Shown piece after piece: positions 45,362-48,452 of a stretch of 64,000 nt of DNA. A program made the position numbers and the translations under genes. Numbering within the stretch: the first letter of the stretch is position 1; every line of letters begins with the position of its first letter. The stretch comes from Marivita lacus (GTDB taxonomy: Bacteria > Pseudomonadota > Alphaproteobacteria > Rhodobacterales > Rhodobacteraceae): contig NZ_BMFC01000002.1 in NCBI RefSeq assembly GCF_014637725.1, positions 62,907 through 126,906 on the forward strand, read 5' to 3'. The notes beneath the pieces were generated by a model. It had not been told where the DNA came from and made no database searches. It saw only the letters and a program-made list of their open reading frames with translations.

Positions 45362-46054
45362 TCAGAGGCTGATCGCCTCCATCACCTGCGGTTCGATCAC
45401 GTCCACATCCGGCAGCGCCCGCACCAGCCCTTCGGCGGATTGCTCCAGCGCCGGGAAGGTGCGGTAGTGGCACGGGATCAGCGTCTTGAAGTCGAAATAT
45501 CGTTTCGCGGCATAGGCCACGCCCGACATGTCCATCGTGTAATAGCCGCCCGCCGACAGGATGCCGATGTCGGGATTGTAGTAATCCCCGATCCAGTCCA
45601 TGTCGGCCATGATCGACGTATCCCCCGAGAAATAGAGCGTCTTGCCGTCGCCGCGCAGGATGAACCCGGTTTCCATCCCCATGTAGCGCGGGGTATCGCC
45701 GACCTGCATGGTTGAGGAATGCGAGGCTGGCACCAGCGTCACCGCCACATTGCCCAGCGTGATCGTGCCGCCCTTGTTGAAGGCATGGCCCTCTTTCGCG
45801 CCAAGTCCGTGCAGGTGTTTGGCGAGTTCCACCATGCCCGAGACCGGTGCGCCGGTCTTGCCCGAGATCTCGACCACATCCGCCGTGTGATCGCCATGTC
45901 CATGGGTCACGAGGATATGCGTCGCCCCCGCGATGGCCGCGTCCTTGTCCTGACCCTCCATCATCGGATTGCCGTTCAGCCACGGATCGACCAGCAGCAC
46001 CTGATCGCCGATCTCGATGCGGAACGATCCGTGTCCAAGCCATATGATGTTCAT
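45362..46054 (-). CDS. Metal-dependent hydrolase, UPF0173 (metallo-beta-lactamase fold)
   Basis: A 230-residue MBL-fold protein with THGHGDHTAD (HxHxDH metal site), GGYYTMDM and PCHYRTFP as in the UPF0173 family. The ATG lies 138 bp from bchE in the opposite direction; the gap carries the bchE regulatory sites. The substrate is unknown. Confidence 0.88.
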   Translation of the reverse strand: MNIIWLGHGSFRIEIGDQVLLVDPWLNGNPMMEGQDKDAAIAGATHILVTHGHGDHTADVVEISGKTGAPVSGMVELAKHLHGLGAKEGHAFNKGGTITLGNVAVTLVPASHSSTMQVGDTPRYMGMETGFILRGDGKTLYFSGDTSIMADMDWIGDYYNPDIGILSAGGYYTMDMSGVAYAAKRYFDFKTLIPCHYRTFPALEQSAEGLVRALPDVDVIEPQVMEAISL

Positions 46055-46123
46055 CTGAATGCCCTCCCTGTTGGTTCGGGAAGGCTAGCACAGCGACGGC
46101 TGTGGAAAAGGTCTGATGCTGTT

Positions 46124-46137
46124 TTGATCTGTGTCAA
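46124..46137 (+). promoter_or_regulatory. FnrL-like site upstream of bchE
   Basis: TTGATCTGTGTCAA fits the FNR consensus TTGAT-N4-ATCAA with one change. FnrL is known to activate bchE in Rhodobacter. It overlaps the first PpsR-like site. Confidence 0.6.
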
Positions 46138-46174
46138 TTTTTTCTGACGAACAAAGTGTCAGAATAAGTTGACA
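46132..46174 (+). promoter_or_regulatory. Tandem PpsR/CrtJ-type sites upstream of bchE
   Basis: TGTCAGAATAAGTTGACA (46157-46174) is an exact TGT-N12-ACA site with the preferred TGTCA..TTGACA ends. TGTCAATTTTTTCTGACG (46132-46149) is a near copy with one mismatch. Starts are 25 bp apart. PpsR/CrtJ represses photosynthesis genes in oxygen or light and often binds paired sites. Confidence 0.75.
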
Positions 46175-46192
46175 CATACGGGGAGAGTCGCA

Positions 46193-47857
46193 ATGCGCAT
46201 TTTATTTGTCCATCCCAACTACCGCTCCGGCGGTGCCGAGATTGCAGGCACATGGCCGCCCGCCTGGGTCGCCTACCTGTCCGGCCATCTGCGGCAGGCA
46301 GGGTTCGACGACATCCATTTCATCGACGCCATGACCGACAATGTCGACGATGCCGAACTGGCGCGTCAAATGGAAGAGATCAAACCGGATGTGGTCGGAG
46401 TGACCGCGATCACCCCGTCGATCTACCGCGCCGAGGATGTGCTCAAGGTCGCCAGCGACGTGGTGCCGAATGCCGTGCGTATGCTGGGCGGCGTGCACGC
46501 GACCTTCATGTACAAGCAGGTCCTGTCCGAGGCACCTTGGGTCGATGTGATCGTGCGCGGCGAGGGCGAGGAGATCTGCACCGAACTGATGCTGGCCATC
46601 GAGGACGGGCGCTGGCCCGCCGACAAGCACAAGATCAAGGGTCTGGCCTTTCTGGACGACGGCCAGATCGTCGCGACCCCGGCGGCAAGCACGGTCAAGG
46701 ACCTCAGCAAGATCAAGCCCGACTGGACCGTTCTGGAATGGTCGAAATACATCTACATCCCGCTGAACACGCGCGTGGCGATCCCCAACCTTGCGCGCGG
46801 CTGTCCGTTCACCTGTTCCTTCTGTTCGCAATGGAAATTCTGGCGCGACTACCGCGTGCGCGATCCCAAGGACGTTGTGGACGAGATCGAGGATCTGGTG
46901 GACAACCACGGCGTCGGCTTCTTCATCCTTGCCGACGAGGAACCCACCATCAACAAGAAGAAGTTTGTCGCCTTCTGTCAGGAACTGATCGACCGGGGTC
47001 TGCCGGACCGCGTCAAGTGGGGCATCAACACCCGCGTGACCGACATCTACCGCGACCGCGATCTGCTCAAGTTCTATCGCAAGGCGGGGCTGGTGCATGT
47101 GTCGCTTGGCACCGAAGCGGCGGCACAGATGAAGCTCGATATTTTCAACAAGGAAACACGCGTCGACGAGAACAAGACCGCCATTCGCCTGCTGCGCGAG
47201 GCCGACATTCTGGTCGAGGCGCAGTTCATCGTGGGGCTGGACAACGAGACGCCAGAGACGCTGGAAGAGACCTACCAGATGGCCTGGGACTGGCAGCCTG
47301 ATCTGGCGAACTGGTCGATGTACACGCCTTGGCCTTTCACACCCTTGTTCCAGGAGTTGAAGGATCAGGTCGAAGTGTTTGATTTCAGTCGATATAACTT
47401 TGTCACCCCCATCATGAAACCCGCCGCGATGGAACGCGGGGAACTGCTGGACGGGGTGATGAACAATTACCGCCGCTTCTACATGAAAAAGGCGCTGTTC
47501 CATTATCCGTGGCGCGGCACCGGGTTCCGGCGGCGCTATCTGCTGGGCTGTCTCTACGCCTTCCTCAAGGCGGGCGTGGGCCGCACCTTCTACGATCTGG
47601 GCAAGGTGGGCTATACCGGGCCGCAATCGAAGAACAAGCTGGATTTCCATTTCGACGAGACCCGCACCATCGCCGAGGCGCAGATGGACGATTGGGTGTC
47701 CTCGGCCGACAAGGCCGCCGCTGCCAAGGAACGGCGCGAGGCGGTGAAGGCTCAGATGAAGGAACGGTCGGCCACGCGCACGCAGGATTTCAAGCTGCCC
47801 AACGGGGCCGAGATCAAGGCCTGTGGAGGTGGACCGCAACAGATGGAGGACGTCTGA
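46193..47857 (+). CDS. bchE: Mg-protoporphyrin IX monomethyl ester anaerobic cyclase
   Basis: A 554-residue B12-binding radical SAM protein starting [20 protein letters not shown], the BchE hallmark. The N-terminal B12-type domain (~1-140) is followed by the iron-sulfur triad in CPFTCSFC (Cys ~204, 208, 211) and the SAM barrel. It builds the fifth ring of bacteriochlorophyll with oxygen from water. The start at 46193 has GGGGAGAG. It overlaps bchJ by ~35 bp. No other photosynthesis genes are in the window, but PpsR- and FNR-type sites precede it. Confidence 0.93.
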
Positions 47858-48452
47858 GGATGTCCGCCACGAGGCCGGTCAAGATGCCCTGATCGGCCCC
47901 AACGCGATCCTGCAACTTCTGCCGCCGCTGGACCGGGCGTTTGGTCCAGCACGCACCGCACAGATGCTCGCCGAAGCGGGGGTGACGGCGATGCCCGACG
48001 GCACCCGCATGATCCCCGAAACCGACGCCGCACGACTGCACCAGTTCTTGCGCCGTGACGCACCCGAGATCGCGGCGTGCCTGAGCGCAGAGGCGGGAAG
48101 AGGCACCGCCGATTACATCCTCGCCCACCGCATCCCCAAGCCGGTGCAAACACTCCTCAAACTGCTGCCTGCGTCCCTCGCAGCCCGTGCACTCTCGGGG
48201 GCCATCGCCAAACACGCCTGGACCTTTGCCGGATCGGGCACATTCCGCGTCGTGTCGCCCTGGTGCTTCGAGATCGGGCAAAACCCCATCGTGCGGGGCG
48301 AGACCAGCGCAACCCCGCTCTGCCACTGGCACGCAGCGGTGTTTGAACGGCTCTACCGCGTGCTGGTGCATCCGGCAGCGACCTGCGTCGAGACCGCCTG
48401 TTGCGCCAGCAGCGCTGCGGGCATCTGCCGGTTCGACATAACAAGCGGGTGA
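47823..48452 (+). CDS. bchJ: BchJ, V4R-domain bacteriochlorophyll biosynthesis protein
   Basis: A ~209-residue protein with [19 protein letters not shown] near the start and the C-terminal V4R domain ending [23 protein letters not shown] and the Cys-rich [12 protein letters not shown], as in BchJ. It was long called the 4-vinyl reductase but is now thought to deliver substrate. No ATG fits; the GTG at 47823 (or 47829) overlaps bchE. The true start may lie nearer IGPNAI, so the first ~20 residues are uncertain. Confidence 0.85.

Follow-up and report, generated by a model that had tools for sequence, protein, structure and literature searches.

Regulation of bchE by FnrL and PpsR/CrtJ has already been published, as has the location of bchEJ outside the photosynthesis cluster in roseobacters; the account given here draws on the accessible parts of the sources cited. 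In R. sphaeroides (Cereibacter), an FnrL site, TTGACatgcATCAA, was reported for bchEJGP (PMC2908626) and a PpsR site, TGTCAACTGAAATGGACACA, for bchEJ (PMC4344238). They match exactly the FNR site and PpsR site 2 of one locus in our collection, L100 (genome G051), which carries TTGACATGCATCAA and, 33 bp further on, TGTCAACTGAAATGGACACA, and which we took as the R. sphaeroides type because both sites are identical in sequence. In R. sphaeroides, mutation of the TCAA motif at its T (-57) lowered bchE-lacZ activity with FnrL by about 90% (PMC4263372); this T is likewise at -57 in L100. In microarrays of an R. sphaeroides fnrL mutant, bchE was unchanged or changed in the opposite way (PMC4263372), and in a second publication the gene is given as repressed in this organism (PMC4634722). 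In R. capsulatus, a CrtJ ChIP peak is located at bchE (PMC5362033), bchEJGP is repressed by CrtJ/SAerR (PMC6199135), and bchE was activated by FnrL in RNA-seq (PMC5643017); the accessible FnrL table for this species holds only aerR and bchF under photosynthesis, and not bchE. Tandem PpsR/CrtJ palindromes have been described as overlapping promoters (PMC2654016, PMC6199135).

In Dinoroseobacter, MPE, the substrate of BchE, builds up in a bchE::Tn mutant, which indicates that a bchE outside the cluster works there (PMC10890935). This D. shibae mutant has not lost bacteriochlorophyll, and for acsF::Tn MPE is the only pigment listed; BchE is therefore the minor and AcsF the main cyclase in the conditions tested (PMC10890935). 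The main text of the D. shibae FnrL paper, as far as accessible, carries no bchE locus tag.

Here, we analyzed a window of 64,000 nucleotides from Marivita lacus (C2:62907-126906 of an assembly of 4.77 Mb in 65 contigs), in which a 51-bp stretch at 46124-46174 can with good confidence be regarded as a compact redox/light operator of a self-contained bchEJ unit, with FnrL as the predicted activator and tandem PpsR as the predicted repressor. What is possibly new is its fixed geometry with a shared half-site; of the 22 neighbourhoods that bchEJ occupies outside the cluster, 19 retain the FNR part of this geometry. We found no description of a shared half-site or a fixed offset in the accessible parts of the literature examined, which excluded most subscription journals.

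Predicted operator of the bchEJ unit

The gene bchE, encoding the oxygen-independent Mg-protoporphyrin IX monomethyl ester cyclase, occupies 46193..47857 on the plus strand (TIGR02026, 825.7 bits, cut-off 481.35) and has an open frame of 554 aa. The closest of the matches listed for this BchE come from three metagenome bins (95-96%) and from Marivita (94, 92, and 89%), which marks the genome as that of a Marivita-like roseobacter. Translation likely starts at the ATG at 46193, which is preceded by the ribosome-binding-like sequence GGGGAGAG (46180..46187, plus strand), seen as G-rich columns in the anchored alignment described below; an alternative TTG at 46169 would extend the frame, but falls within PpsR site 2. 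On the same strand follows bchJ (47823..48452; TIGR02019, 195.2 bits, cut-off 74.3), whose frame opens at a GTG. With the GTG at 47823 taken as the start codon, the last 35 bases of bchE also belong to bchJ; since the ATG at 47861 is in a different frame from bchJ, translational coupling of the two genes is likely. The divergent neighbour at 45362..46054 (minus strand) encodes a metal-dependent hydrolase (NF001911, 218.4 bits) and is not part of the unit. Together with gatC and gatA, it makes up the neighbours of bchEJ, and no linkage to other photosynthesis genes was found.

The gap upstream of bchE measures 138 bp (46055-46192). It contains a putative FnrL (FNR-type) site, TTGATCTGTGTCAA, at 46124..46137 on the plus strand, 69 to 56 bp 5' of the bchE ATG. 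This site has one mismatch to TTGATN4ATCAA and matches TTGAY-N4-RTCAA, the FnrL consensus in published site tables (PMC2908626). Two putative PpsR sites on the same strand follow: site 1, TGTCAATTTTTTCTGACG (46132..46149), has one mismatch to TGTN12ACA, and site 2, TGTCAGAATAAGTTGACA (46157..46174), is an exact palindrome, also when compared with the longer TGTCAN8TGACA. The starts of the two are 25 bp apart, leaving 7 bp between the palindromes (46149 to 46157), which is within the 7-8 bp of tandem PpsR operators, and site 2 starts 33 bp 3' of the start of the FNR site. A previous sequence-only reading of this DNA had reported the FNR palindrome, the exact TGT-N12-ACA site with its one-mismatch copy 25 bp upstream, and the length of the gap, and all of these were recovered at the same positions. 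The overlap that it had noticed between the FNR palindrome and the first PpsR-like site (46124-46137 versus 46132-46149) was borne out as well; it consists of the hexamer TGTCAA (46132..46137, plus strand), which is common to the right half of the FNR site and the left half of PpsR site 1.

Class II activator sites of the FNR type are centred near -41.5 from the transcription start. If FnrL acts from this position, transcription of bchE is predicted to start near 46172, and class II geometry would place the -10 element at CAGAAT (46160..46165, plus strand), inside PpsR site 2. This weak match is the only -10-like element upstream of bchE, and a promoter scan of this upstream region revealed no sigma-70 consensus promoter.

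Genome-wide, the strict composite TTGAN6TCAA-N19-TGTN12ACA occurs once, upstream of bchE. Its parts are more frequent: TGTCAN8TGACA, with up to one mismatch, was found at 119 places compared to 30 for the reversed pattern, and TTGAN6TCAA at 70 places compared to 15. The photosynthesis cluster, with 20 other photosynthesis genes and ppsR named at about 690-736 kb of contig C1, accounts for 12 of the 119. Both exact TTGAN6TCAA motifs in this stretch (696674 and 717233) are within open reading frames, and thus, among bacteriochlorophyll genes, the exact motif was seen in an intergenic position only at bchE. Apart from the cluster and bchE, the genome has six further exact PpsR palindromes, which we inspected for additional targets; no photosynthesis gene was recognised by eye among the adjacent open reading frames, two of which (both on L181) were searched against families. 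An exact PpsR-like palindrome at L182:2041-2058 is located directly 3' of an open reading frame, presumably one for a protein resembling a phage capsid protein.

Both regulators are encoded in the genome. PpsR (TIGR02040, 476.5 bits, cut-off 275.4) belongs to the cluster on contig C1, and the B12-binding protein gene that adjoins ppsR is, by position, that of AerR. FnrL (L184:1767-2513, minus strand) scores 462.4 bits against the equivalog model NF045989 (cut-off 300) and carries N-terminal cysteines, CNDCPIRHRAVCARC. An FNR box, TTGATCTGTATCAA, is present between the fnrL ATG and the divergent hemN (TIGR00538, 394.7 bits), and another, TTGATGCAGATCAA, upstream of ccoN (TIGR00780).

Conservation of the layout and of the shared half-site

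We compared the window with the best 80 of 579 relatives, giving 81 bchE loci, of which 76 are non-sphingomonad (window included). TTGAN6TCAA was present within 200 bp of the start in all 76 of these. A TGTN12ACA motif 32-34 bp from the FNR start was found in 59 of the 81 loci, with a distance of exactly 33 bp in 48. When these upstream regions were resampled 243,000 times under a first-order model, the combination of FNR site and PpsR site 2 did not appear once; this null result and the recurrence in relatives indicate, at the level of sequence comparison, that the motifs in the window are not chance matches. Alignment of related bchE upstream regions, which had been suggested along with the original description of the sites, hence found the motifs conserved rather than missing. 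Across loci, the FNR site is located 62-92 bp 5' of the ATG (103 bp in L111 and 107 bp in L177), and its offset to PpsR site 2 stays at 32-34 bp. PpsR site 1 was found with up to one mismatch in 44 of the 76 non-sphingomonad loci and with up to two in 51, and TGTN12ACA at the offset is absent from 17, so that no single PpsR site is universal.

The layout was not found at the five sphingomonad bchE loci, although the FNR motif is matched at -90 in one of them (L073). In the other four (L068, L069, L076, and L088), the FNR-like site invariably reads TTGAY-N4-CGCAA, and PpsR sites are missing. Their BchE proteins (78-80% identity) are nested among roseobacter sequences in the tree, which suggests horizontal transfer.

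Conservation was also assessed per column in an alignment of 82 rows (the 76 loci and six more; effective number 37.6). As TTGAN6TCAA served as the anchor of the alignment, conservation of the eight FNR letters TTGA and TCAA follows from the choice of rows. PpsR site 2 reached 0.77 bits per column, compared to 0.12 for the 30 columns upstream, 0.25 for the gap between the PpsR sites, and 0.23 for the 19 columns after site 2.

The right half of the FNR site and the left half of PpsR site 1 form one TGTCAA in 52 of the 76 non-sphingomonad loci, and GTCAA is present in 68. The G of this hexamer deviates from the A of the FNR consensus and is required by the TGT of PpsR. In 50 of the 82 loci of the alignment, the right half of PpsR site 1 has at most one mismatch; the C column of this half reaches 1.19 bits. 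This right half is absent from 8 of the 10 loci with ATCAA and from 24 of the 72 loci with G (Fisher p 0.0115); a tree-aware test of this link, with too few independent pairs, was not significant, and we do not use it as proof. The T at 46134, which matches the T changed in the published mutant, belongs to the half-site of PpsR site 1 as well. Because one TGTCAA serves both sites, competition between FnrL and PpsR at this hexamer is plausible and, given the overlap, probable.

In a second sample, we drew 198 genomes of the family, which overlap with the first sample in species and partly in identical contigs. BchE was found in 46 of them (E 1e-150); 44 of these 46 also have BchG, and BchE genomes are therefore nearly all phototrophs. 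The strict composite was identified in 28 of the 198 genomes, directly 5' of bchE in 23, and the reversed pattern in none; 23 of the 46 BchE genomes are without it. The five composites not preceding bchE are those of genomes G001, G064, G096, G100, and G105. By eye, the one in G105 (L108:1501-1551) precedes a zinc alcohol dehydrogenase-like gene, by chance or as another target.

Deeper draws contained BchE in 7 of 289 genomes class-wide and in 8 of 398 phylum-wide, our own genome included in both. The offset of 33 bp between the FNR site and PpsR site 2 recurs before bchE of L165 (70% identity) and L170 (66%), from two other alphaproteobacterial families, and of L177 (59%), from the same family. 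The FNR site together with PpsR site 1 was found in L170 and in L173 (71%, same family), while L167 kept PpsR site 1 and not the left half of the FNR site. No such layout was detected at bchE of L168, L169, L174, or the far relative L171 (31%). L175 and L176, of another class or order and taken as betaproteobacterial, have PpsR-like sites in other arrangements. In L175, at -88 to -63 (TGTCATGAAATATTGACATTTCTCAA), the right half TTGACA of a PpsR palindrome may double as the left part of an FNR-like site; if so, this mirrors the order of FNR and PpsR in the window.

Position of bchEJ relative to the photosynthesis cluster

The earlier note had placed the FnrL-like and PpsR-like sites at a bchEJ locus without other photosynthesis genes, and this is supported, the cluster being on contig C1; the sites are, however, likewise found before bchE within the cluster, as in the R. 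sphaeroides type. We scored loci as outside when no cluster gene was present within about 8-10 kb and left seven with short flanks open. Neighbourhoods were defined by shared genes among four per side at 55% identity; L021, whose match to the bchP query is only 29%, was scored as outside here and in the tree. The 44 outside loci fall into 22 neighbourhoods. Three of these belong to sphingomonads and do not show the layout; the other 19 retain the FNR site. The neighbourhood of the window is common to L010-L014.

We mapped location on a single-gene BchE tree of 91 rows, built by a quick method under LG+G4. Of its rows, 50 were scored as outside, five as cluster edge, and 29 as with ppsR and bchG, leaving the seven short-flank rows open. 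The in/out label changes at least six times on this tree, and parsimony with three-state scoring required eight changes with outside at the root. All 29 ppsR-bchE-bchG rows are part of one clade of 32 on the Rhodobacter side (SH-aLRT 94, just below the starred level). Five of the seven outgroup rows have bchEJ outside the cluster, and the other two carry it at the puhE end. Unlike its nearest tree relatives, Marivita sp. GX14005 (L018) has bchEJ close to the bchD end of the cluster, at a distance of about 0.9 kb.

The sequence-only reading had left undecided whether bchEJ left the main cluster or never joined it. The outside state at the root and the outgroup rows favour the latter for the lineage of the window, in which bchEJ probably never joined, as far as a single gene, the flank lengths, and the sampling allow. 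That an ancestor's cluster once held bchEJ and lost it together with its operator is unlikely in our judgement, even though 29 tree rows have bchEJ with ppsR (as ppsR-bchE-bchG on contigs of sufficient length), and ppsR directly adjoins bchG in the window genome, with no bchEJ between them. Leaving does seem to happen, as the outside rows L060 and L064 fall inside the ppsR-bchE-bchG clade. Against it for the present lineage speak the parsimony root and the single origin of the ppsR-bchG position, the location of bchEJ in the outgroup rows, and the region before bchG. In the 30 loci that we compared out of 44 BchG matches, PpsR-like sites are present before or at the assumed bchG start whatever precedes it, be it bchJ (10), ppsR (19), or nothing that we found (1), and TTGAN6TCAA is present in none. 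With bchG having its own PpsR-like sites and no such motif, bchEJ looks like a self-contained insert. The idea that a remnant of the bchE promoter persists as a scar between ppsR and bchG was rejected on the same count. Our own bchG is preceded by TTGATGTGAATCGA, with one mismatch to TTGATN4ATCAA; the remaining loci of the 30 do not share it, and it is probably there by chance.

Proposed mode of regulation and comparison with known systems

For Marivita lacus, we infer binding of FnrL and PpsR, the direction of their effects, and the transcription start. At low oxygen, FnrL would bind 46124-46137 and activate from the class II position, with transcription starting near 46172. PpsR would bind both palindromes, whose 7-bp spacing is that of its usual tandem operators. 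Site 2 would cover the predicted -10 element and start; site 1 would cover the -35 region as well as the right FnrL half-site. Given this coverage, we propose that bound PpsR blocks both the polymerase and FnrL. As a result, bchEJ would be expressed at low oxygen with PpsR off the DNA, a pattern that would fit the oxygen-independent BchE, the oxygen-dependent AcsF remaining in the main cluster, where acsF is present. Beyond this, the 51-bp stretch might be a portable operator for FnrL/PpsR competition, in which binding is mutually exclusive by geometry and which is kept in register as a cassette across alphaproteobacterial families while bchEJ is found at many unrelated addresses; to this wider proposal we give slightly less than even credence.

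It is possible, though we rather doubt it, that FnrL and PpsR act independently, the overlap arising because both half-sites read GTCAA and PpsR working through site 2 alone. The R. sphaeroides-type loci L100 and L099, which keep the FNR site and PpsR site 2 without site 1, are consistent with this, as is the presence of site 1 with up to one mismatch in only 44 of 76 loci. Independent action does not account for the right half of site 1, which FnrL does not need and which is nevertheless conserved in the 50 of 82 loci with its C column of 1.19 bits, nor for the 7-8 bp tandem spacing, described as typical of PpsR operators (PMC2654016). The main activator at the FNR site might also be another CRP/FNR-family protein of the genome rather than FnrL, since HTH_Crp_2 was found at 17 places, 11 of them above cut-off, CrpK also acts on the bchE site of R. 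sphaeroides (PMC4263372), and in D. shibae the induction of photosynthesis genes involves DnrD and DnrF in addition to FnrL (PMC5398030). We consider this quite improbable, because FnrL of this genome is an above-cut-off equivalog with FNR boxes before hemN and ccoN, and because bchE fits the FnrL logic of oxygen-independent isoenzymes. Some aerobic phototrophs lack bchEJ, which has been ascribed to little benefit in aerobic life (PMC12654162), and the motifs could accordingly be chance matches or dead remnants beside a bchE that the organism does not use. Such a reading is barely credible in view of the conservation, the null results (0 of 243,000 resamplings; reversed composite in 0 of 198 genomes), the open BchE frame of 554 aa, and the phenotype of the Dinoroseobacter bchE::Tn mutant (PMC10890935).

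An operator read by FnrL and PpsR bears on the use of two cyclases, as aerobic roseobacter phototrophs can keep the oxygen-independent enzyme beside the oxygen-dependent one. Its conservation indicates when BchE should be made, which argues that the enzyme is in use, contrary to the idea that it brings little benefit in aerobic life. The shared half-site offers a simple, testable model of how oxygen and light signals might be integrated, and conservation across many addresses shows that regulation goes with the gene unit and not with the neighbourhood.

Overall, the locus resembles several described systems in part. Like the bchEJGP promoter of R. sphaeroides (Cereibacter), it has FnrL and PpsR sites 33 bp apart; unlike in the window, this promoter is inside the cluster between ppsR and bchG, and its right FNR half reads ATCAA without a PpsR site 1, hence without a shared half-site. 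The bchEJGP genes of R. capsulatus (CrtJ/AerR) show, in the accessible parts of the sources, a combination of CrtJ at bchE and activation by FnrL like the one predicted here; the CrtJ motifs there are 45 to 500 bp apart, compared to the 7-bp tandem in the window (PMC6199135). In Dinoroseobacter shibae (Dshi_2636/2637) and Roseobacter litoralis, bchEJ is outside the cluster as in the window, and the accessible parts of the reports on these loci describe no operator (PMC6052148, PMC12654162). Tandem PpsR/CrtJ operators of the bchC type and of Congregibacter consist, as in the window, of a pair of TGTN12ACA motifs 7-8 bp apart (PMC2654016, PMC6199135). Unlike the window, they are presented in the accessible parts of these papers without mention of an FNR site within site 1.
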